Source: Chamaea fasciata (Eukaryota > Chordata > Aves > Passeriformes > Sylviidae). From it: a stretch of 64,000 nt of DNA. Position numbers and translations under genes: made by a program. Of the stretch, positions 13,106 through 62,640 are shown piece by piece (position 1 is the stretch's first letter; each line of letters starts with the position of its first letter). Below the pieces are notes generated by a model, which worked only from the letters and a program-made list of their open reading frames with translations, was not told where the DNA came from and did no database searches. The stretch is taken from the NCBI GenBank assembly GCA_029207755.1, contig JARCOQ010000006.1, positions 69,786,093 through 69,850,092 on the forward strand. Reading direction: 5' to 3'.

Positions 13106-27565
<14,460 letters not shown>

Positions 27566-29200: not shown

Positions 29201-29814
29201 TTTTTATAAATAGAAGTTTTGCCACTGGAGAGTGTGAGTTGCAGAGGAATTGAGGGAGAAGAAGGAGAGCATCAGGTCTCACCTGGCAGCTGTCACCTAA
29301 GCTGCACCTTATTTGTGGCAGGGAAAAAGTGGCTGTTTGAAATTCCCTAAGCTCCAAAGGCACGAAGGGCAGGAAATGGTGAAGCCAGAGATGGGACCAG
29401 CCCGTGCTTGGACCCACGGCACGGGCAGTGGTAGCTCCTAGACCGCGTGTGCTCCTTTGGCCGTCCAAGGACGGGGACATGGAGGGACGGACAAGGTCTG
29501 GCTTTCAGAACATCGGAGGCACCAGAGAAACATCGCTGTCACCGTTCTGAGCCCTGGCTCCCCGCGGCCGGAGCTGGACCGTGCCCGGATCCCCGGCGGG
29601 GCCCTGGCCCCGGGCCGCCAGAACCGGAGCAGGAGCGGCGGCGCCGAGCTGGGCTCCGGTCCAGCCGCGGCCTCGGGGGTGGCGGGGCCGGGCCGGGAGC
29701 GCTCTGGGGCTGCGGAGCCGGCCCTGGCCGCGCCCCGTGTCCGCCAGAGGGCGCCCTGCGGGGTCCCGGGCCCAGGCGGGGCCCCGGGGAACCGCCCCAT
29801 CCCGATCCCGGTAC
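29201..29814. promoter_or_regulatory. CpG-rich flank of the macrosatellite
   Basis: From about 29480 the sequence becomes extremely GC- and CpG-rich. It ends in a short remnant resembling the array minisatellite (CATCCCGATCCCGGTACC, about 29799-29816) just before the first repeat unit. It contains a CTCF-like motif at 29741-29754. No conserved coding sequence recognised. Confidence 0.6.
29741..29754 (+). promoter_or_regulatory. CTCF-like motif in left flank
   Basis: CCGCCAGAGGGCGC matches 13 of 14 positions of the CTCF core CCASYAGRKGGCRS. Motif only; binding not shown. Confidence 0.5.
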
Positions 29815-29980
29815 CACAGAGCGCGGGGCGGGGCCGGCACAGGTGCACCGGGCGCCAGGGCGGCTGCGCGGGGCGGGGCCGAGGGCATTTAAACCCCGAA
29901 AGCAGCCGCAGGTGTTATTCTCCACCCAGCGCCCGCAGGTGTCGGCAGCAGCGGGTCCGGGCTCCCCAGACGGGGTTCAG
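29815..29980 (+). promoter_or_regulatory. Promoter-like cassette, copy 1
   Basis: Two GC boxes (GGGGCGGGGC type), TATA-like ATTTAAA at 29887-29893, then about 90 bp without ATG ending TTCAG|GTGAGG, a consensus 5' splice site at 29980/29981. Reads as a TATA promoter with a non-coding first exon. Transcription is not shown. Confidence 0.6.
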
Positions 29981-29985
29981 GTGAG

Positions 29986-30135
29986 GCGCTTCTCTCTCCT
30001 TCTCTCTCCTTCTCTCCTTCTCTCCTCTCTCCTCTCTCCTTCTCTCTCCTTCTCTCACCTTCTCTCTATCCTCTCTCCTTCTCTCTATCCTCTCTCCTTC
30101 TCCCCGCTTCTGCTTTTCTCCCCTTTTTCCCCGTC
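29986..30135 (+). repeat. Polypyrimidine tract, unit 1
   Basis: A TCTCTCCT-type C/T-only stretch directly after the splice donor; the longest of the four copies. Mirror-like C/T tracts can form triplex DNA (general knowledge). Confidence 0.85.
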
Positions 30136-30580
30136 TACCGCCCGCTCCCCGGCTCCCCTCCTTGCTACGCACGCCGACCACCCCCCGCCCCTCGTGCTGC
30201 TCCCTCCTCACCTCACTACCCAGCCTGGCTCTTCGCTCTGTTCCCTTCTATCCCCTCTACTTTCTCCTACTCTTCTCCCTCTCCACCGTCCCATCTCCCC
30301 TACGCAACTCCTTATCGCCCCTCTGTCCCTCTCCCCTCTCACGCGCCTTCCCTTTGTCCCTTCTCTGTGTCCCTTCTCTGTGTCTCTCTGTCTCTTCTCG
30401 ATGTCCCGGGGGCTCCGGGGGGTCAGGGTGGGCTCCCTCCTCAGGACGGGGCTCCGGGGTGCCAAGGGTGGGGGGTCCGCCCCGCTTAGCCCCTCCCACC
30501 TCGGGCCCCGCTCGCACCTGTGTCAGCCCCGCGCCAAGCACGCGCTCCGTGGCCCCGCGGCCCGTAGCGCTGCCCCGGGG

Positions 30581-30594
30581 CCACGAGGGGGCGC
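30581..30594 (+). promoter_or_regulatory. CTCF-like motif, unit 1
   Basis: CCACGAGGGGGCGC, 13 of 14 matches to the CTCF core, in the CpG-rich part of the unit just before minisatellite M. Confidence 0.5.
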
Positions 30595-30626
30595 CACGCT
30601 CGCTCCGGGGAACGGGGAACGTGCCG

Positions 30627-30946
30627 CGATCCCGGCCCCATGCCGATCCCGGCCCCATGCCGATCCCGGCCCGATGCCGATCCCGGCCCCATGCCGATCC
30701 CGGCCCGATGCCGATCCCGGCCCCATGCCGATCCCGGCCCGATGCCGATCCCGGCCCCATGCCGATCCCGGCCCGATGCCGATCCCGGGCCCATACCGAT
30801 CCCGGCCCCATGCCGATCCCGGCCCCATACCGATCCCGGCCCCATGCCGATCCCGGGCCCATGCCGATCCCGGCCCCATACCGATCCCGGGCCCGTACCG
30901 ATCCCGGCCCCATGCCGATCCCGGGCCCGTACCGATCCCGGCCCGA
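30627..30946 (+). repeat. 17-bp minisatellite M, unit 1
   Basis: Tandem CGATCCCGGCCCCATGC with 17/18-bp variants (CATACC, CCCGTACC, CCCGATGCC). Very high CpG content. Confidence 0.95.
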
Positions 30947-31118
30947 TTCCCTTCCACCCTCCCGCCGGAGGGGCGGCGGCACCCGGCGGGACCCCCCGGC
31001 AGAGCCCAGCAGCGCTCGGCCCCCGACCCCCCCAAGGTCGCGGCCCCGCCGCGGCGCCCCGGGCTCCAGGTGTGAGGGGCGGGGCCGTGACCGAGGGCGG
31101 GGCTGCGGGGCCCAGAGC

Positions 31119-31789
31119 TGCTGGCGATACGCGGAAGACTTTAGAACTGAGAGTTTCAGAGTAGGCGTGTCGTTTATTCGCCAGCCGGGCGTACGGGGGA
31201 TATTTTCTCCACAGGCGTGCGCGCCTTCTTTTATCCTCTAGATATCCCATCTTCTTTTATGCTCTAGAACGTTACTCATGCATCAAGTTTGGCAACGCAC
31301 CCATGCATATTGATTCCCTGGCTCCACCCCTCCCCGCTGCTTCTGCTAATCGTCTTATCAGTCCTTTGCGCCTGCGCAGTTGTCTCTGTTGGTCGTCTCG
31401 GGGGTCTCGGGGCTCCCAAAGGATGAAGTAAAGTGGTCCTCCTCGGAGCTGACCTTATCCTGTTCTCTTGCTCATGCTCACTGATCCTTTGGCCACAGTC
31501 CAAGCCATAAGGCCAGTTTCACCTGGTTCCAGGGGCCCCAGGACCCCCGATATCCCAGCAACCTTGGCAGTTTGCCACAGTTGAGTCCTATTCCTGGTAA
31601 GCATCCTTTCCGTTATCAGGCATCCTTGCATTCCTTCTTGGTGGTTTTGCACGTAGTCCTGTCTCTTTCCTTCCCTAGCAATTAATACAGTACAAGACGC
31701 AGCAACTATTAAGCAATACACATCATCTAAATGCCTATTCTTAGTCAATACCTACTAATTGCTGGGATAAATATCCTCTAGCTTCTAGC
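31119..31789 (-). mobile_element. Solo-LTR-like segment, unit 1
   Basis: On the - strand, two CATAAAAG/GATAAAAG TATA-like boxes (31267-31226 region) are followed about 80 bp later by AATAAA at 31178-31173 and a short tail, the order expected for U3-R-U5 of an avian endogenous retrovirus LTR. An NRF1-like TGCGCCTGCGCA lies at 31367-31378. No gag, pol or env seen. Ends are approximate because no target-site duplication could be fixed. Confidence 0.6.
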
Positions 31790-31852
31790 GCCGTGGGGGT
31801 CTGCTGGGGGTCCGGGCGGGGCCGCCTCTCCTCTGTCCGGAGGATGGAAGCG

Positions 31853-32496
31853 GCATGGGCCCGGGATCGGTATGGGGCCGGGATCGGTATGGGGCCCGGG
31901 ATCGGTATGGGGCCGGGATCGGTATGGGGCCCGGGATCGCTATGGGCCCGGGATCGGTGTGGGGCCCGGGATCGGTGTGGGGCCCGGGATCGCTATGGGG
32001 CCCGGGATCGGTATGGGGCCGGGATCGGTATGGGGCCCGGGATCGGTATGGGGCCGGGATCGGTATGGGGCCCCGGATCGCTATGGGGCCGGGATCGGTA
32101 TGGGGCCGGGATCGGTATGGGGCCCGGGATCGGTATGGGGCCGGGATCGGTATGGGGCCCCGGATCGCTATGGGGCCCGGGATCGGTATGGGGCCGGGAT
32201 CGGTATGGGGCCCGGGACCGGTATGGGGCCCGGGATCGGTGTGGGGCCCGGGATCGGTGTGCGGCCCGGATCGGTGTGGGGCCCGGATCGGTATGGGGCC
32301 GGGATCGGTATGGGGCCGGGATCGGTATGGGGCCGGGATCGGTGTGGGGCCCGGGATCGGTATGGGGCCGGGATCGGTGTGGGGCCCGGGATCGGTATGG
32401 GCCCGGATCGGTATGGGGCCCGGATCGGTATGGGGCCCGGGATCGGTATGGGCCCGGATCGGTATGGGCCGGGATCGGTATGGGGCCCGGGATCGC
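31853..32496 (-). repeat. Inverted minisatellite M', unit 1
   Basis: Tandem GGTATGGGGCCGGGATC, the reverse complement of the M consensus, with 17/18-bp variants. Confidence 0.95.
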
Positions 32497-32560
32497 GGCG
32501 CTTTCCCGCTGCGGACGCGGCGCTCCCGCGTGGCCCCGGCACAGGTGTGAGGGGCGGGGC

Positions 32561-32726
32561 CACAGAGCGCGGGGCGGGGCCGGCACAGGTGCACGGGGCG
32601 CCAGGGCGGCTGCGCGGGGCGGGGCCGAGGGCATTTAAACCCCGAAAGCAGCCGCAGGTGTTATTCTCCACCCAGCGCCCGCAGGTGTCGGCAGCAGCGG
32701 GTTCGGGCTCCCCAGACGGGGTTCAG
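32561..32726 (+). promoter_or_regulatory. Promoter-like cassette, copy 2
   Basis: Same layout as copy 1: GC boxes, ATTTAAA at 32633-32639, donor TTCAG|GTGAGG at 32726/32727. Differs from copy 1 at very few bases. Confidence 0.6.
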
Positions 32727-32734
32727 GTGAGGCG

Positions 32735-32835
32735 CTTCTCTCTCCTTCTCTCTCCTTCTCTCTCCTTCTCTCTATCCTCTTCTCTATCCTCTCTCCTTCT
32801 CCCTGCTTCTGCTTTTCTCCCCTTTTTCCCCCTCT
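32735..32835 (+). repeat. Polypyrimidine tract, unit 2
   Basis: C/T stretch after the donor, shorter than in unit 1, followed by more C-rich pyrimidine sequence to about 33140. Confidence 0.85.
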
Positions 32836-33321
32836 ACCGCCCTCCCCGTCTCCCCCTCTACCGCCCGCCCCCTCTCACCCCTCACCTCGCCGGCTCCCCT
32901 CCTTGCTACGCACGCCGACCACCCCCCGCCCCTCGTGCTGCTCCCTCCTCACCTCACTTCCCAGCCTGGCTCTTCGCTCTGTTCCCTTCTATCCCCTCTA
33001 CTTTCTCCTACTCTTCTCCCTCTCCACCGTCCCATCTCCCCTACGCAACTCCTTATCGCCCCTCTGTCCCTCTCCCCTCTCACGCGCCTTCCCTTTGTCC
33101 CTTCTCTGTGTCCCTTCTCTGTGTCTCTCTGTCTCTTCTCGATGTCCCGGGGGCTCCGGGGGGTCAGGGTGGGCTCCCTCCTCAGGACGGGGCTCCGGGG
33201 TGCCAAGGGTGGGGGGTCCGCCCCGCTTAGCCCCTCCCACCTCGGGCCCCGCTCGCACCTGTGTCAGCCCCGCGCCAAGCACGCGCTCCGTGGCCCCGCG
33301 GCCCGTAGCGCTGCCCCGGGG

Positions 33322-33335
33322 CCACGAGGGGGCGC
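33322..33335 (+). promoter_or_regulatory. CTCF-like motif, unit 2
   Basis: Identical motif CCACGAGGGGGCGC at the same place in the unit and in the same orientation. Confidence 0.5.
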
Positions 33336-33367
33336 CACGCTCGCTCCGGGGAACGGGGAACGTGCCG

Positions 33368-33600
33368 CGATCCCGGCCCCATGCCGATCCCGGCCCCATG
33401 CCGATCCCGGCCCGATGCCGATCCCGGCCCGATGCCGATCCCGGGCCCATACCGATCCCGGCCCCATGCCGATCCCGGCCCCATACCGATCCCGGCCCCA
33501 TGCCGATCCCGGGCCCATGCCGATCCCGGCCCCATACCGATCCCGGGCCCGTACCGATCCCGGCCCCATGCCGATCCCGGGCCCGTACCGATCCCGGCCC
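33368..33600 (+). repeat. 17-bp minisatellite M, unit 2
   Basis: Same repeat as unit 1 with about five fewer copies. Confidence 0.95.
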
Positions 33601-33774
33601 GATTCCCTTCCACCCTCCCGCCGGAGGGGCGGCGGCACCCGGCGGGACCCCCCGGCAGAGCCCAGCAGCGCTCGGCCCCCGACCCCCCCAAGGTCGCGGC
33701 CCCGCCGCGGCGCCCCGGGCTCCAGGTGTGAGGGGCGGGGCCGTGACCGAGGGCGGGGCTGCGGGGCCCAGAGC

Positions 33775-34445
33775 TGCTGGCGATACGCGGAAGACTTTAG
33801 AACTGAGAGTTTCAGAGTAGGCGTGTCGTTTATTCGCCAGCCGGGCGTACGGGGGATATTTTCTCCACAGGCGTGCGCGCCTTCTTTTATCCTCTAGATA
33901 TCCCATCTTCTTTTATGCTCTAGAACGTTACTCATGCATCAAGTTTGGCAACGCACCCATGCATATTGATTCCCTGGCTCCACCCCTCCCCGCTGCTTCT
34001 GCTAATCGTCTTATCAGTCCTTTGCGCCTGCGCAGTTGTCTCTGTTGGTCGTCTCGGGGGTCTCGGGGCTCCCAAAGGATGAAGTAAAGTGGTCCTCCTC
34101 GGAGCTGACCTTATCCTGTTCTCTTGCTCATGCTCACTGATCCTTTGGCCACAGTCCAAGCCATAAGGCCAGTTTCACCTGGTTCCAGGGGCCCCAGGAC
34201 CCCCGATATCCCAGCAACCTTGGCAGTTTGCCACAGTTGAGTCCTATTCCTGGTAAGCATCCTTTCCGTTATCAGGCATCCTTGCATTCCTTCTTGGTGG
34301 TTTTGCACGTAGTCCTGTCTCTTTCCTTCCCTAGCAATTAATACAGTACAAGACGCAGCAACTATTAAGCAATACACATCATCTAAATGCCTATTCTTAG
34401 TCAATACCTACTAATTGCTGGGATAAATATCCTCTAGCTTCTAGC
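33775..34445 (-). mobile_element. Solo-LTR-like segment, unit 2
   Basis: Reads identical to the unit 1 copy over about 670 bp, so it was copied with the unit and not inserted independently. Confidence 0.6.
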
Positions 34446-34508
34446 GCCGTGGGGGTCTGCTGGGGGTCCGGGCGGGGCCGCCTCTCCTCTGTCCGGAGGA
34501 TGGAAGCG

Positions 34509-35136
34509 GCATGGGCCCGGGATCGGTATGGGGCCGGGATCGGTATGGGGCCCGGGATCGGTATGGGGCCGGGATCGGTATGGGGCCCGGGATCGCTATG
34601 GGCCCGGGATCGGTGTGGGGCCCGGGATCGGTGTGGGGCCCGGGATCGCTATGGGGCCCGGGATCGGTATGGGGCCGGGATCGGTATGGGGCCCGGGATC
34701 GGTATGGGGCCCGGGATCGCTATGGGGCCCGGGATCGGTATGGGGCCGGGATCGGTATGGGGCCCCGGATCGCTATGGGGCCGGGATCGGTATGGGGCCC
34801 CGGATCGCTATGGGGCCCGGGATCGGTATGGGGCCGGGATCGGTATGGGGCCCGGGACCGGTATGGGGCCCGGGATCGGTGTGGGGCCCGGGATCGGTGT
34901 GCGGCCCGGATCGGTGTGGGGCCCGGATCGGTATGGGGCCGGGATCGGTATGGGGCCGGGATCGGTATGGGGCCGGGATCGGTGTGGGGCCCGGGATCGG
35001 TATGGGGCCGGGATCGGTGTGGGGCCCGGGATCGGTATGGGCCCGGATCGGTATGGGGCCCGGATCGGTATGGGGCCCGGGATCGGTATGGGCCCGGATC
35101 GGTATGGGCCGGGATCGGTATGGGGCCCGGGATCGC
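34509..35136 (-). repeat. Inverted minisatellite M', unit 2
   Basis: Same as in unit 1 with a slightly different internal order. The last third is identical to unit 1. Confidence 0.95.
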
Positions 35137-35200
35137 GGCGCTTTCCCGCTGCGGACGCGGCGCTCCCGCGTGGCCCCGGCACAGGTGTGAGGGGCGGGGC

Positions 35201-35366
35201 CACAGAGCGCGGGGCGGGGCCGGCACAGGTGCACGGGGCGCCAGGGCGGCTGCGCGGGGCGGGGCCGAGGGCATTTAAACCCCGAAAGCAGCCGCAGGTG
35301 TTATTCTCCACCCAGCGCCCGCAGGTGTCGGCAGCAGCGGGTTCGGGCTCCCCAGACGGGGTTCAG
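35201..35366 (+). promoter_or_regulatory. Promoter-like cassette, copy 3
   Basis: GC boxes, ATTTAAA at 35273-35279, donor at 35366/35367. Reads identical to copy 2. Confidence 0.6.
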
Positions 35367-35374
35367 GTGAGGCG

Positions 35375-35475
35375 CTTCTCTCTCCTTCTCTCTCCTTCTC
35401 TCTCCTTCTCTCTATCCTCTTCTCTATCCTCTCTCCTTCTCCCTGCTTCTGCTTTTCTCCCCTTTTTCCCCCTCT
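35375..35475 (+). repeat. Polypyrimidine tract, unit 3
   Basis: Same as unit 2 at the equivalent position. Confidence 0.85.
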
Positions 35476-35961
35476 ACCGCCCTCCCCGTCTCCCCCTCTA
35501 CCGCCCGCCCCCTCTCACCCCTCACCTCGCCGGCTCCCCTCCTTGCTACGCACGCCGACCACCCCCCGCCCCTCGTGCTGCTCCCTCCTCACCTCACTTC
35601 CCAGCCTGGCTCTTCGCTCTGTTCCCTTCTATCCCCTCTACTTTCTCCTACTCTTCTCCCTCTCCACCGTCCCATCTCCCCTACGCAACTCCTTATCGCC
35701 CCTCTGTCCCTCTCCCCTCTCACGCGCCTTCCCTTTGTCCCTTCTCTGTGTCCCTTCTCTGTGTCTCTCTGTCTCTTCTCGATGTCCCGGGGGCTCCGGG
35801 GGGTCAGGGTGGGCTCCCTCCTCAGGACGGGGCTCCGGGGTGCCAAGGGTGGGGGGTCCGCCCCGCTTCGCCCCTCCCACCTCGGGCCCCGCTCGCACCT
35901 GTGTCAGCCCCGCGCCAAGCACGCGCTCCGTGGCCCCGCGGCCCGTAGCGCTGCCCCGGGG

Positions 35962-35975
35962 CCACGAGGGGGCGC
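35962..35975 (+). promoter_or_regulatory. CTCF-like motif, unit 3
   Basis: Identical motif at the equivalent position and orientation. Confidence 0.5.
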
Positions 35976-36007
35976 CACGCTCGCTCCGGGGAACGGGGAA
36001 CGTGCCG

Positions 36008-36360
36008 CGATCCCGGCCCCATGCCGATCCCGGCCCCATGCCGATCCCGGCCCGATGCCGATCCCGGCCCGATGCCGATCCCGGGCCCATGCCGATCCCG
36101 GCCCCATGCCGATCCCGGCCCCATGCCGATCCCGGCCCGATGCCGATCCCGGGCCCATACCGATCCCGGCCCCATGCCGATCCCGGCCCCATACCGATCC
36201 CGGCCCCATGCCGATCCCGGCCCCATGCCGATCCCGGGCCCATGCCGATCCCGGCCCCATGCCGATCCCGGGCCCATGCCGATCCCGGCCCCATACCGAT
36301 CCCGGGCCCGTACCGATCCCGGCCCCATACCGATCCCGGCCCCATGCCGATCCCGGCCCG
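36008..36360 (+). repeat. 17-bp minisatellite M, unit 3
   Basis: Longest M array, same 17-bp consensus and variants. Confidence 0.95.
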
Positions 36361-36533
36361 ATTCCCTTCCACCCTCCCGCCGGAGGGGCGGCGGCACCCG
36401 GCGGGACCCCCCGGCAGAGCCCAGCAGCGCTCGGCCCCCGACCCCCCCAAGGTCGCGGCCCCGCCGCGGCGCCCCGGGCTCCAGGTGTGAGGGGCGGGGC
36501 CGTGACCGAGGGCGGGGCTGCGGGGCCCAGAGC

Positions 36534-37204
36534 TGCTGGCGATACGCGGACGACTTTAGAACTCAGAGTTTCAGAGTAGGCGTGTCGTTTATTCGCCAGC
36601 CGGGCGTACGGGGGATATTTTCTCCACAGGCGTGCGCGCCTTCTTTTATCCTCTAGATATCCCATCTTCTTTTATGCTCTAGAACGTTACTCATGCATCA
36701 AGTTTGGCAACGCACCCATGCATATTGATTCCCTGGCTCCACCCCTCCCCGCTGCTTCTGCTAATCGTCTTATCAGTCCTTTGCGCCTGCGCAGTTGTTT
36801 CTGTTGGTCGTCTCGGGGGTCTCGGGGCTCCCAAAGGATGAAGTAAAGTGGTCCTCCTCGGAGCTGACCTTATCCTGTTCTCTTGCTCATGCTCACTGAT
36901 CCTTTGGCCACAGTCCAAGCCATAAGGCCAGTTTCACCTGGTTCCAGGGGCCCCAGGACCCCCGATATCCCAGCAACCTTGGCAGTTTGCCACAGTTGCG
37001 TCCTATTCCTGGTAAGCATCCTTCCCGTTATCAGGCATCCTTGCATTCCTTCTTGGTGGTTTTGCACGTAGTCCTGTCTCTTTCCTTCCCTAGCAATTAA
37101 TACAGTAGAAGACGCAGCAACTATTAAGCAATACACGTCATCTAAATGCCTATTCTTAGTCAATACCTACTAATTGCTGTGATAAATATCCTCTAGCTTC
37201 TAGC
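36534..37204 (-). mobile_element. Solo-LTR-like segment, unit 3
   Basis: Same segment with 8 substitutions relative to units 1 and 2 and no indel seen. Confidence 0.6.
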
Positions 37205-37267
37205 GCCGTGGGGGTCTGCTGGGGGTCCGGGCGGGGCCGCCTCTCCTCCGTCCGGAGGATGGAAGCG

Positions 37268-37806
37268 GCATGGGCCCGGGATCGGTATGGGCCCGGGATC
37301 GGTATGGGGCCGGGATCGGTATGGGGCCGGGATTGGTATGGGGCCGGGACCGGTGTGGGGCCCGGGATCGGTATGGGGGCCCGGATCGGTATGGGGCCCG
37401 GGATCGGTATGGGGCCGGGATCGGTATGGGGCCGGGATCGGTGTGGGGCCCGGGATCGGTATGGGGCCGGGATCGGTATGGGGCCCGGGATCGGTATGGG
37501 CCCGGGATCGGTGTGGGGCCCGGGATCGGTATGGGGCCGGGATCGGTGTGGGGCCCGGGATCGGTATGGGGCCGGGATCGGTATGGGCCCGGGATCGGTA
37601 TGGGGCCCGGGACCGGTATGGGGCCCGGGATCGGTGTGGGGCCCGGATCGGTGTGGGGCCCGGATCGGTATGGGGCCGGGATCGGTATGGGGCCCGGATC
37701 GGTATGGGGCCGGGATCGGTATGGGGCCGGGATCGGTATGGGGGCCGGGATCGGTATGGGGCCCGGGATCGGTATGGGGCCGGGATCGGTATGGGGGCCG
37801 GGATCG
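37268..37806 (-). repeat. Inverted minisatellite M', unit 3
   Basis: Same 17-bp repeat; more diverged variant order than units 1 and 2. Confidence 0.95.
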
Positions 37807-37871
37807 CGGCGCTTTCCCGCTGCGGACGCGGCGCTCCCGCGTGGCCCCGGCACAGGTGTGAGGGGCGTGGC

Positions 37872-38037
37872 CACAGAGCGCGGGGCGGGGCCGGCACAGG
37901 TGCACGGGGCGCCAGGGCGGCTGCGCGGGGCGGGGCCGAGGGCATTTAAACCCCGAAAGCAGCCGCAGGTGTTATTCTCCACCCAGCGCCCGCAGGTGTC
38001 GGCAGCAGCGGGTTCGGGCTCCCCAGACGGGGTTCAG
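37872..38037 (+). promoter_or_regulatory. Promoter-like cassette, copy 4
   Basis: GC boxes, ATTTAAA at 37944-37950, donor at 38037/38038. This is the copy nearest the unique sequence with further splice-like sites at 39.1-39.3 kb, so it could drive a transcript towards SLC4A4 (inference). Confidence 0.6.
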
Positions 38038-38045
38038 GTGAGGCG

Positions 38046-38160
38046 CTTCTCTCTCCTTCTCTCTCCTTCTCTCTCCTTCTCTCTCCTTCTCTCTATCCTC
38101 CTCTCTATCCTCTCTCCTTCTCCCTGCTTCTGCTTTTCTCCCCTTTTTCCCCCTCTACCG
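38046..38160 (+). repeat. Polypyrimidine tract, unit 4
   Basis: As in the other units with an extra CTCTCCTT repeat and small indels. Confidence 0.85.
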
Positions 38161-38646
38161 CCCTCCCCGTCTCCCCCTCACACCGCCCGCCCCCTCTCTC
38201 CCCTCACCTCCCCGGCTCCCCTCCTTGCTACGCACGCCGACCACCCCCCGCCCCTCGTGCTGCTCCCTCCTCACCTCACTTCCCAGCCTGGCTCTTCGCT
38301 CTGTTCCCTTCTATCCCCTCTACTTTCTCCTACTCTTCTCCCTCTCCACCGTCCCATCTCCCCTACGCAACTCCTTATCGCCCCTCTGTCCCCCTTCTCC
38401 CCTCTCACGCGCCTTCCCTTTGTCCCTTCTCTGTGTCCCTTCTCTGTGTCTCTCTGTCTCTTCTCGATGTCCCGGGGGCTCCGGGGGGTCAGGGTGGGCT
38501 CCCTCCTCAGGACGGGGCTCCGGGGTGCCAAGGGTGGGGGGTCCGCCCCGCTTAGCCCCTCCCACCTCGGGCCCCGCTCGCACCTGTGTCAGCCCCGCGC
38601 CAAGCACGCGCTCCGTGGCCCCGCGGCCCGTAGCGCTGCCCCGGGG

Positions 38647-38660
38647 CCACGAGGGGGCGC
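38647..38660 (+). promoter_or_regulatory. CTCF-like motif, unit 4
   Basis: Identical motif at the equivalent position and orientation in the partial unit. Confidence 0.5.
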
Positions 38661-38692
38661 CACGCTCGCTCCGGGGAACGGGGAACGTGCCG

Positions 38693-38870
38693 CGATCCCG
38701 GCCCCATGCCGATCCCGGCCCCATGCCGATCCCGGGCCCATGCCGATCCCGGCCCGATGCCGATCCCGGGCCCATGCCGATCCCGGCCCGATGCCGATCC
38801 CGGGCCCGTACCGATCCCGTACCGATCCCGGGCCCGTACCGATCCCGGGCCCGTACCGATCCCGGCCCGA
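38693..38870 (+). repeat. 17-bp minisatellite M, unit 4
   Basis: Shortest M array, ending in CCCGTACC-type variants. Confidence 0.95.
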
Positions 38871-38970
38871 TTCCCCTTCCACCCTCCCGCCGGAGGGGCG
38901 GCGGCCCCGCCCGGCGGACTCCGGCGGCGCTCGGCCCCGCACTCGGGGCCCCGCCGCAGCGCCCCGGGGA

Positions 38971-45900: not shown

Positions 45901-48900
45901 GAAAAAAAAAAAAAAAAAGCTCACAAAAGCAAAATCTGTCATAAAGCAGGGGCCTGGAAATTAAAAAGGAGAGGGAAAGAAAAAAAGAAAAGAACAAGAG
46001 AATACTTCTGAAGTAAAAGGAAAGATTAATTTTTTTTAAATCACTCTAAATAGACATAGATATATTCTTGTAGTGCAAGTCAGAGTCAAGCAGGCATGCA
46101 AGAGCTTAGTTCTACTCACTGTCGGCAGGTTTGCTATCACTTAGGAAAGGTTCCTGCTCCATGATGTCCATTGGTATTTTAATACTTGGGACTTTTTCTG
46201 AGTAGGGGCAGTCAGACTGTGAAAGAAACGTGTAAAAGGTCTTAGAACATTCCCACTGCTCTCTCTTATCATCCCCCACACATTAAAATTATCCTTCATA
46301 TAGATCCGTAGGAATGGGTAAAAGAAAAGAAGGGAAAAGAGAAAAGCGTCCTCCAGCTTAGCTGCCTGATGGATTCCACTGGTTCCCCACTGCACCCCAC
46401 TTCCCTTCATACCCTCACACTCCAAAAATAAAACAGATTGAAAGAATCATCTTGTGGAATTGGAAATTGTAATAAATCTCCTCCTTTCCCACCCCGTCAT
46501 CTTAAAAGACACCATCCTGCTCTGCCTGGAGCCGGCTGCAGGAAACAGAGATGGGAAATGCACTTGTGGGCAGACACAGCAGGGCACTGGCTGCTGGAAA
46601 AGCTCATCCAAACCCTTTGTCCTGCTGGGATTTTTGGAAAAGCCCTTAGCTGTTCCCGACTGCTCTGCAGGGCCCAGATGTGACACGGCAGAGGGTCCAT
46701 CAGACTGGCTCAGCTCCCTCTTTAACGCAAGTGGAGTCAAACCCAGTCTCAGTTACACCTCTGGCTCATCAACTCCAGAGCCCTTGGAAGAGTTCTGTGA
46801 CTCTGGCCCAGGCAGAGAAACAGCAACCAAGTCGGGATGAGGCAGAGGGAAAAGCCAGGGTTCCCTGGAGCTGAGGTACCAGCAGGATTTTACACCCACT
46901 GCCTTCTATCAGCCACCTGCTTCTGCTCAATAGAAGGTGCTTGGAATGGTTCTGCTTTTTTAAAAATAAAGGGAACTCCTCATAGCCAGGAAAAGCTGAC
47001 ACTGCCTCACCTGGCAAAAGCAGAAAGGTGGGATTTGCCAGAAATGCTGGGACATCTTGGTTCCTGAAGAGAACCAGACCCACAACACTGGGGTGGAGGG
47101 AGGAGACCTGCCAGTCAGAGCAGGAAAACACTGCGGAAGCCAGAGAACGGCTCTCCCTGGATTATTATTATTTTAAATTTATTTTTTAACATAACTGATA
47201 TCCAACAGCAAGACGTTTCCTCAGGACTATTTTTATGAGGCTGAGGGACAAGCATAACCCAAAGAAAGCACAAGCAACACCCAGCAGTTCCCTCGGCTGA
47301 ACTCAGATCCATGTATTGCCCCCTAGATCCCACAGGATTAACTCTGGGGGTGGATATTTCTGGAAGGGAAAGTGCGAAAATAATCCAACCAGTAATGCCC
47401 AGTGCTGTATGTTCAGGAAGCTGGTAAAAGCAAGTGCTGAAAAAAACCAGCAGGAGTTAAGAACCAATACTTTGCATAAAACGTCTTATCCATTAGATTA
47501 ATTACTGTACCTGGAATTCGGGAAAAGCCTGGGAAGAGAGGAAATATCTTTAAACACACTGGAGGGAGGGAAGCCGTGGCTCGGGATACGACGCTGCTGG
47601 ATTCACACCAGTCAGGAGAAGCGGATGGAGTCAAACCTTTGCTGATTCCTCAGTAGGGCCTCTGCTAATCTCATCTGGGTTTGCTCAGAGGTGCTAAGGA
47701 AAACCCTTGTCCTGGGAACTGGAGGAGTGATGGGACAGGGCAGGTTGCTGCCTGAACTAAGAGCCAATTCTCCCAGCTGCTTTTCTTGCTGTGCTAAAAT
47801 GGGAATATTTCCCAGCTTTGGGTGAGCTCACCTCTCCCTACTCCCCAGGGAAGGCCCTTCTTCATGGACGTGAGCAGAGGTGACACCATGCTTAGAACTC
47901 ACCACAGAAATGTGTTCAGCACTTCAGTATACATCTAAAGGTTCTGAGTTAGACCTGAGCAGGAGAACATTTAAAGGCACCGAGACTGCATTTCTTCTTC
48001 TTATATATACAGGAGGAAAGAGAACAGTCAAAGGCACATGGGTCTGGTCTAGCTGGGTCACTTTTCACTATTTAGGGCATGCTGCCACCTGAGGTAGGAC
48101 CAGAGCGTACTGCAGAGGGCACGGATGCTCGGGAAGCATTTAGGTGATGAGTTTTACCAACACAAAGCAGTTTTTCCTGCAATATGACAAATCACATCTG
48201 TTTTGTGCTTTCCAAAAGAGCCATTACAAAAATATTAATAAAAAAAAGAAAAAGAAAACCAGTAGGACCAGAGCTGCTGTGAAAAGCCTTCACCTCCTAA
48301 AATGTAAGAGACAACGAAGGGGAGAAAGGCGCAGGAGGGAAGCTGGAGGAGGCAGCGTGGTGAGAGGCATTCTAGCAAGGGGCATGGCATCTCAGCAGGC
48401 ACCTGGTGCTCTCACAAAGTGTGATTTCATTCCTAGCAACGCATCAATTCCACCACAGGCTGGAAAAGGGAAGGCAGTGTGGGAAGTAAGTTTTCTCTGG
48501 GACCCATTTGCTGCAGCAGCAAAAGACTGAGCTGTCAGCTCCACAAGTGGCTGGAAAATGTCCAGCCTCAGCACTGGGCAGGGCACAGAATGTGCCGGGG
48601 CTTAGCTACCTAGGAAGGAGGAGTGTGACAAGAGCAGGAAGCTGCTTACATCATCGTTGTCACTGTCCATACTGCCCTTCTTCTTTTTCTTCTTCTTCTC
48701 ATCCTCTTTCTTCTTCTTGTCCTTTTCTGGAATGACGTCGTCAAGAAAACTTAAGTCATGCTGGGAAAAGAGGTAGTCCATGGCTTTTCTGACTGCCACC
48801 AGGGCCAAGATCTGCAAAGGCAGAGAGGGATTCCCAGTCACATTTTACCTTACATCTGGAACAGTGCATTCCTCTCAGTTCTGCTTCTAAACCCACACTC

Positions 48901-60900: not shown

Positions 60901-62316
60901 GAATTAAAAGAGAGAAAAAAGAGAGCAAGCAATTGAAATCAACAGGATGGGGATAATTTCTTCTAAAGAAGGAGCAGCATTCTCAGTGGCTTCTGCAGCA
61001 TTAGGAATCGTGAATTCGAAATTCCATTTAGAAATGCAATCCTTCCTGCAAACGGGCTCGTGGGCCCCGTCCTCATGGCATACCAAGGTTTTGCATAAAT
61101 AAACTTTTTTCACTTGGATGTCTGGAGAGTCTCAGGTGTTTCAATGGGAACTGGAGACTTCCAGATTGGCACTGACCATTCCCATCGTTCTAGTTTCAAA
61201 AAGGAAACCACTCTGCCATTCCAGAGGGGGCAGAACCAGCGCAGCATCCACGTGCTCACCAAGATCCTGTGTTTAACAGGGAAGGCAGGCACCCAGCCCC
61301 CAGGGAACCGGCTCCTGACACCTTCGAGGAGCAGCCAGCAGCTTTTCCTGTTGGACAGGTGTGCCGAGATAACCTGTGCTTTACTTTGGGCACAGATCAA
61401 GTTTCTTGCTCACTCCCCATTGTTTGTGGGATCCTAGGAGTGGTCCCCGGTTCCCTAATGGTACGGCCAGCATCGCTCAGTTTGGATTTGGGTTCCCAGA
61501 GCCATAGGTACACTGGCTCTACCTGCCACACAGCCCACGCTCCAGAGATAGGCTGCCCTGTGGATACACTTCCCTTCTTGGAAGGGAAGGAATTGTTTGC
61601 TTTCCCTCTCATCCATGCAGTCAGGAGGTGGGAACCACCCATGTTTGGGTAACACCTTGAATAAATCCAGCTCCTGAAACGGGAGTGACCTGAGCTCCAT
61701 GGCAGTGACCCGGCCACCACTTCCGCCCCTTTGTGGAATTCTTGGAGGAATGCCACTTGGAACTGACAGCCACAGGGATACAAGGAGACAAGGTTGCAGA
61801 AACAGCCTCTCCACTGGTCACGATGCTCTCCGGAGGAGTTCCAGGAAGGCCAGCTATGCTGACATCCCACTTGGGATGCAGGGTGAAATTTACCTCTCAG
61901 CTTCCTGAGGCTAAGATAGGATACCCGAAGGCAACCGATAAAGGAGGAACAATCTACCTATTATCTGGGCTGCAGCACAAGGGAAAAGGAGAGCAAAGGC
62001 CACCTCCTACCTGCAACCTGGAGAGGTAATGAACACTCCCTTACCTGGATCTAGTGGTTGACAGGCACAAGAGTAATGTGTGATGTAGTCCACCTTGAAC
62101 TGGGAGTTGATGGGATAATGATCTGCCAGCTTAATCATCTTCTTGAAAGCATCATAGATGAAGATGAAGCTGATCAGGGAGGAGAATCCTTCTTCGGTGA
62201 AGCGGGTGAAGTACTTGACCAGGAAGCTGGCGTCGGTGGCCACGAGAATGAGACACTGGAAGGCTGACCAGAGGCCAATCCAGAGGCGGAACTCCAGGTA
62301 GTCAAAATCATTGTCC
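42862..62316 (-). CDS. SLC4A4: SLC4A4, electrogenic Na+/HCO3- cotransporter NBCe1 (13 exons, C-terminal half)
   Basis: NBCe1 moves Na+ with bicarbonate/carbonate across the plasma membrane (basolateral in kidney and pancreas). Exons in transcript order: 62316-62045, 60451-60381, 60070-59882, 58871-58758, 58401-58240, 56546-56368, 55527-55455, 52115-52047, 50851-50678, 48811-48650, 46216-46120, 43952-43873, 42967-42862. All are GT-AG and in frame. They encode the second half of the transmembrane domain, a large extracellular loop with sequons NSS, NRT and NAT, and a Lys-rich cytoplasmic tail with the KKGS site and DNDD. Two ends are possible. With the 97-nt exon, the frame stops at TGA 43909-43911 after ERHTSC (A/B). 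Skipping it changes frame, reads through the 80-nt exon, and ends ETTL at 42862 (C). The match is to SLC4A4 rather than SLC4A5/A7 because of HTSC, ETTL and [17 protein letters not shown]. The N-terminal cytoplasmic domain and first membrane helices are beyond 64000. Confidence 0.96.
43155..43312 (-). mobile_element. CR1 LINE 3' fragment
   Basis: CACAGAATCCCAAAATGTTT, GGGCAGGGACACCTTCCACT and CACTTCCAGGGATGGGGCG. Confidence 0.92.
43840..43852 (+). repeat. G13 homopolymer
   Basis: Thirteen consecutive G on +, a C13 tract in the SLC4A4 transcript about 20 nt downstream of the donor of the dual-frame exon, followed by AG. Confidence 0.9.
43873..43952 (-). CDS. SLC4A4: SLC4A4 80-nt dual-frame exon (A/B stop; C read-through)
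   Basis: After the 97-nt exon it reads [14 protein letters not shown] and stops at TGA 43909-43911. After skipping, the same bases read [20 protein letters not shown] and QSHAMPS with no stop, and splice to the last exon. Acceptor TCCCGCAG, donor CAAG|GTAAGC. A 13-nt C-run lies about 20 nt into the following intron. Confidence 0.94.
46120..46216 (-). CDS. SLC4A4: SLC4A4 97-nt alternative exon (NBCe1-A/B tail)
   Basis: Exactly 97 nt: [20 protein letters not shown], then [12 protein letters not shown]. It carries the PFLS basolateral-targeting motif described for NBCe1-A. Acceptor AGACTGTGAAAG-side CAG, donor GACA|GTGAGT. Because 97 is not a multiple of 3, skipping it switches the downstream frame to the NBCe1-C tail. 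Confidence 0.96.
48650..48811 (-). CDS. SLC4A4: SLC4A4 exon: cytoplasmic tail with Lys-rich stretch
   Basis: 54 codons: [20 protein letters not shown] and [11 protein letters not shown], then a run of Lys, then GSMDSDNDD. The KKGS serine corresponds to the PKA-regulated serine described in NBCe1, and DNDD to a proposed carbonic-anhydrase contact (both from family knowledge). Donor GAT|GTAAGC. This is the branch point for the A/B and C tails. Confidence 0.96.
50678..50851 (-). CDS. SLC4A4: SLC4A4 exon: membrane segments near the C-terminal end
   Basis: 58 codons: [37 protein letters not shown] and [18 protein letters not shown]. Acceptor CTTTCCAG, donor ATG|GTAGGT. Confidence 0.96.
51742..51840 (-). 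mobile_element. CR1 LINE fragment, eroded
   Basis: AGAATCCTGGAGGGGTTTGG, CCCCCTGCCACGGGCCAGG and CTGCTCCAAGCCCCATCC, with an internal deletion. Confidence 0.7.
52047..52115 (-). CDS. SLC4A4: SLC4A4 exon: membrane segment
   Basis: A small 69-nt exon of 23 codons encoding [20 protein letters not shown] and GVQ. Acceptor GTCCTGCAG, donor CAG|GTGAGT. Confidence 0.95.
52551..52806 (+). mobile_element. CR1 LINE fragment
   Basis: Sense CR1: GACAGAACAAGAGTAAACAG, GGTTTAGGTGGGATCTTAGG, CAGGGCAGTGCTGGAGTCAC and CAATCCTGTGATTCC. Confidence 0.9.
55455..55527 (-). CDS. SLC4A4: SLC4A4 exon: membrane segment
   Basis: A 73-nt exon encoding [19 protein letters not shown] and APILK. Acceptor TTGCTTCAG, donor AAG|GTAAGG. 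Confidence 0.95.
56368..56546 (-). CDS. SLC4A4: SLC4A4 exon: membrane segments
   Basis: A 179-nt exon: [35 protein letters not shown] and [17 protein letters not shown], with a split Arg codon AG|G. Donor GAG|GTATGT. Confidence 0.96.
58240..58401 (-). CDS. SLC4A4: SLC4A4 exon: membrane segment
   Basis: 54 codons: [20 protein letters not shown], then [20 protein letters not shown] and VNRKEHKLK. Acceptor CCCTTCAAAG, donor AAG|GTGAGT. Confidence 0.96.
58758..58871 (-). CDS. SLC4A4: SLC4A4 exon: membrane segment
   Basis: 38 codons: [20 protein letters not shown] and [18 protein letters not shown]. Acceptor TCTTCCAG, donor AAG|GTACGT. Confidence 0.96.
59882..60070 (-). CDS. SLC4A4: SLC4A4 exon: loop end and next membrane segment
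   Basis: 63 codons, phase 0: [20 protein letters not shown] (sequon NAT), [20 protein letters not shown] and [14 protein letters not shown]. Acceptor TTTCTGCAG, donor ACT|GTAAGT. Confidence 0.96.
60381..60451 (-). CDS. SLC4A4: SLC4A4 exon: extracellular loop 3
   Basis: A 71-nt exon encoding [20 protein letters not shown] and SEL after a split Val codon. Two N-glycosylation sequons (NSS, NRT) fit the known glycosylated loop of NBCe1. This is the least conserved part of the protein; its identity rests on frame continuity with both neighbours. Confidence 0.9.
62045..62316 (-). CDS. SLC4A4: SLC4A4 exon (first in window): transmembrane segments and loop
   Basis: A 272-nt exon, acceptor TTGTTGCAG, donor CCAG|GTAAGG. 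Encodes [54 protein letters not shown] and CACQPLDP at the start of the large extracellular loop. Confidence 0.96.
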
Positions 62317-62379
62317 CTGCAACAAGACAAGGGTGTCAAGAAAGGAAAACATCGGGTTAGGTAAGATCGGGAAGTACCA

Positions 62380-62640
62380 AGCAGATGTTACAGGGAATGA
62401 AGCTGAGTCAGGGGAAGTTGAGACTGGACATAAAGGAAAAATCCTCTCCCAGAAGGTGGCTGGACACTGGAACAGTCTCCCCAGAGAAGCGGTCACGGCA
62501 CCTAACCTGACAGAGTTCCAAGGATCACCTGGACAGTGCTCTTAGTCACATGGTTTAGTTTTAGGTGGTCTTGCCAGGTGCAGAGAGTTGGATTTGCTGA
62601 TCCTAATGGGTCCTTTCCAGTCTGGGATATTCTGTGACAA
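62380..62640 (+). mobile_element. CR1 LINE fragment, diverged
   Basis: ACTGGAACAGTCTCCCCAGA, GTTCCAAGGATCACCTGGAC, TTGGATTTGCTGATCC and GATATTCTGTGA, a sense CR1 copy of an older subfamily. Confidence 0.7.

Follow-up and report, generated by a model that had tools for sequence, protein, structure and literature searches.

Macrosatellites that carry CTCF sites together with internal promoters have been described mainly in mammals, where X inactivation and muscle disease are associated with them. DXZ4-type macrosatellites comprise tens of copies, D4Z4 is built of GC-rich tandem units about 3 kb long, and the MHM locus of birds consists of tandem units of about 2.2 kb beside DMRT1. The present analysis concerns a GC-rich tandem array at positions 29815-38970 of a 64-kb stretch of the Chamaea fasciata genome (C6:69786093-69850092, here called the window), and it was found that this array is, by its sequence, a macrosatellite variant that apparently arose by local amplification within a broader promoter-like family, itself apparently undescribed and present on several chromosomes, for which a function can only be inferred. 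No description of the array or of the family was found in the open-access literature searched, in line with the original prediction, which had called the unit undescribed with a question mark.

In architecture, the nearest known system is DXZ4, described as a CpG-rich tandem unit of about 3 kb whose internal promoter element contains a CTCF site, the CTCF sites of mouse Dxz4 being of one polarity, as far as the cited accounts go (PMC6985041, PMC3491370). The array likewise consists of GC-rich units, about 3 kb long and arranged head to tail, each with a conserved promoter-like sequence and with a CTCF-like site of one polarity, the latter at the level of the motif only and according to an approximate matrix. 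However, it holds 3.4 copies in the assembly, its sex linkage is unlikely, its relatives are dispersed and partly arranged in convergent pairs, and, in place of the paired YY1 site of DXZ4, its start region has no word of the CCATTT type (which we take to be YY1-like) but reads TTATTC. Like D4Z4, the array has a GC-rich tandem unit of similar length, about 3 kb. A DUX4 retrogene is described in every D4Z4 unit (PMC5849414), whereas no double-homeobox or other Pfam family was found in the six array open reading frames (ORFs) searched. The MHM locus on chicken Zp is presented as a bird locus with a non-coding RNA and methylation control (PMC2375040); the array, in contrast, is flanked by an ADAMTS-type gene and SLC4A4, with GC and DCTN6 some 0.85-0.9 Mb off. 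Finally, human TERRA promoters are characterized, in the account cited, as CpG-island promoters that lie within repetitive DNA close to chromosome ends (PMC6600276), and the array resembles them in placing a CpG-rich promoter-like sequence within repetitive DNA, although it is interstitial and no TTAGGG array occurs among the tandem repeats of the window. The functional analogy with DXZ4 and D4Z4 that had been offered as an inference for the locus found no support in the sequence, considering the low copy number, the ORFs without a Pfam family, TTATTC in the place of CCATTT and the SLC4A4, GC and DCTN6 neighbourhood.

The extent of the array, which spans about 9 kb in a window free of N, agreed to the base with the unit lengths first proposed:

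29815..32560, plus strand: unit 1, 2746 bp
32561..35200, plus strand: unit 2, 2640 bp
35201..37871, plus strand: unit 3, 2671 bp
37872..38970, plus strand: unit 4, partial and without the long terminal repeat (LTR), its homology decaying past about 38900

Identity between units was 92.6-98.8% in the main self-BLAST alignments, and therefore the repeat structure is not due to chance. In unit 4 the homology is strong until about 38900, fades by about 38970 and gives way to unrelated sequence, and when its GC spacer is compared with units 1-3, 26 of the 129 aligned bases are mismatched and 42 columns are gaps. The GC content is 0.67 in the array versus 0.49 in the flanks, as expected from the GC-rich nature attributed to it. 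All four units have in common a GC-box/ATTTAAA promoter, a splice donor, a C/T tract and a CTCF-like motif on the same strand, while only the three full units contain, in addition, a truncated antisense LTR flanked by a minisatellite in its two orientations. The two oppositely oriented 17-bp minisatellites were verified to be one and the same 17-mer, and every component listed in the original prediction (promoter-like cassette, C/T tract, CTCF-like motif, paired minisatellites and an LTR in each full unit) was recovered:

29887..29893, plus strand: TATA-like ATTTAAA of unit 1, with GC boxes upstream; equivalents at 32633, 35273 and 37944
29981..29986, plus strand: splice-donor-like GTGAGG after CAG, unit 1; equivalents at 32727, 35367 and 38038
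29987..30400, plus strand: C/T-rich tract, unit 1
30476..31016, no strand assigned: left arm of a large inverted repeat, unit 1, read as the remnant of a minus promoter arm that has lost its TATA
30627..30944, plus strand: 17-mer minisatellite in C-rich orientation, unit 1; also at 33368-33600, 36008-36359 and 38693-38868
31126..31787, minus strand: truncated antisense LTR, unit 1; also at 33782-34443, 36541-37202
31787..32628, no strand assigned: right arm of the inverted repeat, with spacer, minisatellite and the sequence upstream of the next promoter
31857..32495, minus strand: the identical 17-mer, whose plus-strand sequence is here G-rich, unit 1; also at 34513-35135 and 37266-37806

The array is not isolated, since its promoter can be assigned by similarity to a dispersed family that occurs partly in convergent pairs. 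The genome searched was the same assembly (1.19 Gb, 1341 contigs). For a 2001-base query (30000-32000, part of the unit), full-length matches were confined to the three full units of the window among the 40 of 67 first-look candidates that were scored, so that counts from this search are lower bounds; the other matches were LTR copies, minisatellites resembling the 17-mer and two related places on C6 (70.56 and 70.70 Mb). A 171-base piece covering the promoter and exon 1, on the other hand, gave 27 matches, namely the four window units and 23 elsewhere, on C5, C6, C7, C9, C14 and C203. Additionally, a core pattern was found at 14 sites (4 in the window; 0 for the reversed control) and an exon-2 pattern at 48 (control 0), 22 of the latter being one identical variant at contig ends or on small contigs.

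When the 21 arms with sequence to hand were aligned, a median pairwise identity of only 0.60 was obtained, with 20 arms mutually less than 90% identical, and the nearest relative of the window arm (C6:70.56) reached 0.74. Nevertheless, in the block GGCTGCGCGGGGCGGGGCCGAGG, 20 of 23 columns were shared by at least 19 of the 21 arms (at least 90%), as were all six columns of ATTTAA. An exact CCATTT lies 25-27 bases below TTAA in 10 of the 21 arms, the other 11 carrying variants; it is plausible that this position marks the transcription start point, although the start-word spacing seen in all 21 arms is partly circular because the search expression allowed variants. In the window unit, where only the start region was inspected, the position reads TTATTC. 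Nine of the 21 arms, among them every one of the six C6 arms examined, have a donor word, and the exon-2 word was located in 13: as AATAAAGCCC in seven (C5, C6 71.81, C7, C14) and in altered form in six (C4, C6 70.56 and 70.70, C9 and two end copies). In the relatives, AATAAA follows shortly after the acceptor. A small independent test was provided by four loci that had been retrieved with the exon-2 pattern and then read, in three of which a GC-rich block is followed, at the expected distance, by ATTTAA: the block is well preserved in L069, and L066 and L067 are decayed copies of one repeat with ATTTAA. At the fourth, L068, neither the promoter block nor ATTTAA was found at the expected distance.

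The pairing of these promoters became apparent when the 23 promoter matches outside the window and the 26 exon-2 matches other than the end variant were clustered at 4.2 kb. From the 25 clusters obtained outside the window, 15 were single arms and 10 were two-stranded, and all ten of the latter were convergent: C5 at 54.32 Mb; C6 at 70.70, 71.81 and 72.83 Mb; and C7 at 0.36 and 10.37 Mb, with four more at 0.82-0.86 Mb. These ten correspond to about six independent loci, because the tandem C7 clusters form one array and C6 71.81 and 72.83 are duplicates. The distance from TATA to TATA is 1.2-4.1 kb in the seven pairs with both words located, and the pairs are separated from a contig end by 0.36 to about 20 Mb.

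Taken together with the inverted repeat, this arrangement indicates how the array was probably formed. The segment 30476-31016 mirrors 31787-32628 at 77-87% (six alignments among the matches listed), and the reversed segment 30400-30626 aligns with the sequence upstream of the next promoter exactly up to the TATA, which is itself missing. In the simplest reading, an ancestral convergent module would have lost its minus promoter and its exon-2 parts; one arm would have retained the GC boxes and ATTTAAA, and the opposite arm the upstream region, the CTCF-like motif and the minisatellite, but not the TATA. An LTR would then have been inserted between the arms, followed by head-to-tail duplication of the 2.7-kb unit. 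It is very probable that the array is such a short tandem array, derived from a rearranged module of a dispersed, GC-rich, apparently non-coding promoter family that occurs partly as facing TATA-type pairs, with loss of the TATA of the opposite arm and with LTR insertion ahead of the duplication.

The LTR, located on the minus strand, belongs to a dispersed repeat and is apparently 5'-truncated: its best identity to seven dispersed copies compared is 83%, three of the seven end at the same 3' point, and the TG-containing start that six of them share, as judged by eye, is missing from the window copy; no target-site duplication was readable. Its presence in all full units, with 0/680 differences between units 1 and 2 and 8/680 for unit 3, implies that the LTR preceded the duplications and that at least one duplication is young. 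Promoter segments differ between units at 0-2 of 170 positions and CTCF segments at 0-1 of 217; in the C/T tract, units 2 and 3 are identical and unit 1 departs from the others at 52-53 of 418. Thus, the units diverge mostly in minisatellite length, to which the C/T tract is added for unit 1, and this unevenness between segments indicates that homogenisation was itself uneven.

The CTCF-like sites were scored with an approximate matrix (maximum score 26.0), sites being counted at 15 or above:

29738..29756, plus strand: CTCF-like motif in the left flank, score 18.6; the identical 19-mer occurs at L009 and L010 (C6:70.56 and 70.70)
30578..30596, plus strand: CTCF-like motif, unit 1, score 20.0
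33319..33337, plus strand: CTCF-like motif, unit 2, score 20.0
35959..35977, plus strand: CTCF-like motif, unit 3, score 20.0
38644..38662, plus strand: CTCF-like motif, unit 4, score 20.0

The four unit motifs are the top four scores in the window with this matrix, all on the plus strand. Five sites of 15 or above were counted in the array against a mean of 0.27 over 100 dinucleotide shuffles, among which the best single site reached 19.9, and a lone CTCF-like site is thus not decisive; since a single motif, present in four copies, accounts for four of these five, they represent two independent motifs. The left flank with the motif at 29738 resembles C6:70.56 at 80% over 132 columns, and at C7:0.36 and C7:10.37 sites scoring 19.4-21.6 lie about 0.7 kb upstream of an arm. 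As regards CpG content, the observed/expected ratio (o/e) is 0.81 in the array versus 0.33-0.34 in the flanks. The LTR copies within the array carry 25, 25 and 29 CpG (o/e 0.64-0.73), whereas the seven dispersed copies fetched, 467-667 bases long, carry 4-13 (o/e 0.17-0.52). Such retention would be expected if the array were unmethylated in the germ line.

From these features a mechanism can be outlined, in which non-coding transcription of the plus strand would begin about 30 bases below ATTTAAA in each unit and the units would remain unmethylated in the germ line. One CTCF-type site per unit, four on the same strand, could act with the promoter activity as a one-way CTCF/cohesin barrier, which would separate the ADAMTS-type gene from SLC4A4 with an effect scaling with copy number. 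This mechanism is put forward tentatively, as a possibility rather than an expectation, whereas origin and mechanism together form the explanation that is favoured, at a confidence slightly short of even. Several observations weigh against it. The array has only 3.4 copies, and the acceptor and AATAAA-type exon 2 of the relatives were not found in unit 1 with the expressions used. No AATAAA or ATTAAA occurs on the plus strand in 29.7-40.6 kb, and therefore an array transcript would lack the usual end of the family. The exon-2 word was not found in eight of the 21 arms within the stretch read, although in two of these the stretch is short and the site is present in the exon-2 pattern search; the window unit is among the remainder. 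A CTCF-like site of 15 or above lies near an arm in only four of 16 other family loci (L009, L010, L059, L060), the flank scanned being short in some of the 12 others. Moreover, most arms were found through promoter similarity, which biases the set toward conserved promoters, and GC-biased conversion could contribute to the high CpG content.

The latter process is central to a strong rival explanation, according to which the array is a functionless by-product: a promoter fragment and minisatellites situated in a recombination-prone CpG island would have been copied and homogenised by unequal exchange and GC-biased conversion, with no selection involved. To our knowledge birds lack PRDM9, and bird crossovers gather at CpG islands. 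The variation of the units mainly in minisatellite length (in unit 1 also in the C/T tract), the young duplication indicated by the LTR differences, the loss of the exon-2 part from the window unit and the low copy number are all in agreement with such a history, which explains a young, small array nearly as well as the favoured reading and is a serious contender, though probably not the correct one. Recombination alone, however, leaves unexplained both the conservation of the GC boxes and ATTTAA among arms of 60% identity and the convergent pairing, two facts that argue for the family and not for the array. A different derivation, from a subtelomeric TERRA-like promoter family transcribing toward telomeres, with the window copy as a relic further inward, would account for the 22 of 48 exon-2 sites that are one variant at contig ends or on small contigs, and for the decayed promoter arm in the two copies read (L066 and L067); moreover, one class of human TERRA promoters is described as CpG islands in repetitive tracts (PMC6600276). 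It is nonetheless improbable, considering that 3.4 Mb separate the window from the end of its contig, that no TTAGGG array occurs among its tandem repeats, that some convergent pairs are removed from a contig end by as much as about 20 Mb, and that the C25 copy is directed to its near contig end while the C10 copy points away from it.

Two further alternatives are both very improbable. Tandem copies might have been invented in assembly by haplotype or repeat duplication, as the near identity of units 1 and 2 across long stretches could suggest, but minisatellite lengths and point differences vary by unit, no N is present and unit 4 runs into unrelated sequence. Likewise, the donor-like CAG|GTGAGG that every unit has downstream of a TATA promoter could point to an unrecognised protein-coding gene, of which the units would carry the promoter and the first exon. 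This possibility was rejected for the array, as the six ORFs searched, including the antisense LTR ORF, gave no Pfam family (one at E<=0.1, five at E<=0.01), and the relatives reach AATAAA soon past the acceptor. Within the window, Rfam gave zero matches at the gathering threshold and a tRNA scan gave none. Under the favoured explanation, the ancestry of the array can be read within a single genome, from convergent modules through single arms and degenerate copies to the tandem array. The path from promoter module to macrosatellite thereby becomes testable, including whether CTCF polarity and CpG retention precede or follow amplification. The dispersed convergent family may be a larger find than the array itself, and, if transcribed, it would constitute a class of bird non-coding loci possibly hidden by GC-rich assembly gaps.

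Concerning the genomic setting, the array lies between two convergent genes, as had been proposed, on a 73.3-Mb contig:

24660..25154, plus strand: ADAMTS-type thrombospondin domains of the left neighbour (PF19030, Pfam)
48602..48841, minus strand: SLC4A4 exon of the right neighbour, top PDB match NBCe1 (6caa)
62007..62384, minus strand: SLC4A4 exon of the right neighbour, top PDB match NBCe1 (6caa)

The left gene, which we take to be ADAMTS2-like although the domain assignments themselves are tool results, also gave a PLAC match under its Pfam cut-off. NBCe1 was the top PDB match in three exons of SLC4A4, where it scored some 1.7 to 2 times as many bits as the runner-up. The genes for GC (vitamin D-binding protein) and DCTN6 are found on the same contig near a paralogue, and the three genes suggest a location on a chromosome-4-like autosome, where synteny presumably places them.

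The convergent modules of C5 and C7 have an additional property, since the 110-nt stretch between AATAAA and the centre folds at -78 to -115 kcal/mol (eight stretches in four modules). Seven of these eight gave z-scores of -4.0 to -9.6 and the C10 end copy -3.9, values that are flattered because six of the nine stretches were chosen as the most stable window; the weak one, L056:595-704, had a z-score of -1.60, with 16 of 200 shuffles as good. The best fold windows of the C4, C6, C9 and C14 arms reached only -34 to -71 kcal/mol, and the one 110-nt stretch folded from the window gave a z-score of +0.51. The hairpin alignment was of low complexity, with a mean column identity of 62%, and covariation in it was therefore discounted. 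The following are stable GC-rich hairpins of about 100 nt (z-scores of -4.0 to -9.6, most-stable windows):

L059:1582-1691
L060:2758-2867
L060:3086-3195
L056:391-500
L070:978-1087
L070:1302-1411

A microRNA identity of the hairpins was rejected: 30 Rfam matches were obtained (E<=0.1; L059, L046, L009), all below gathering and all on two L059 hairpins, and they were taken as generic. By eye, a short conserved module centre was recognized around CACGTCACTCTGCAGCGT at L059:1757-1806, L056 ~530-580 and L060 ~2930-2975. One could speculate, although this is on balance unlikely, that an undescribed bird family of palindromic non-coding modules is involved, in which two convergent GC-box/TATA promoters would each lead via a C/U-rich stretch to AATAAAGCCC, with a very stable 100-nt GC-rich hairpin toward the centre (C5/C7), a short conserved middle and CTCF-type motifs upstream at some loci. 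Such modules would have been amplified locally (11 kb on C7, 2.7 kb in the window), with one arm spread to contig ends, and might act as promoter-boundary elements or give rise to structured RNA.

Some minor observations were made at related loci. A second tandem array of four convergent modules with a period of about 11 kb is present at L064/L070 (C7:821500-833300), extending over C7:835-857 kb by pattern matches. The C6 modules at 71.81 and 72.83 Mb (L046-L049) belong to a duplication about 1 Mb apart that is 94-97% identical beyond the convergent module. The 22-site end variant (L066, C25:6906700-6909500; L067, C10:156600-159400; and 20 more) may be a subtelomeric repeat, both copies read having a decayed promoter arm. 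Finally, on C5, a stretch resembling an endogenous retrovirus by eye (L058:1-830) adjoins a promoter arm.

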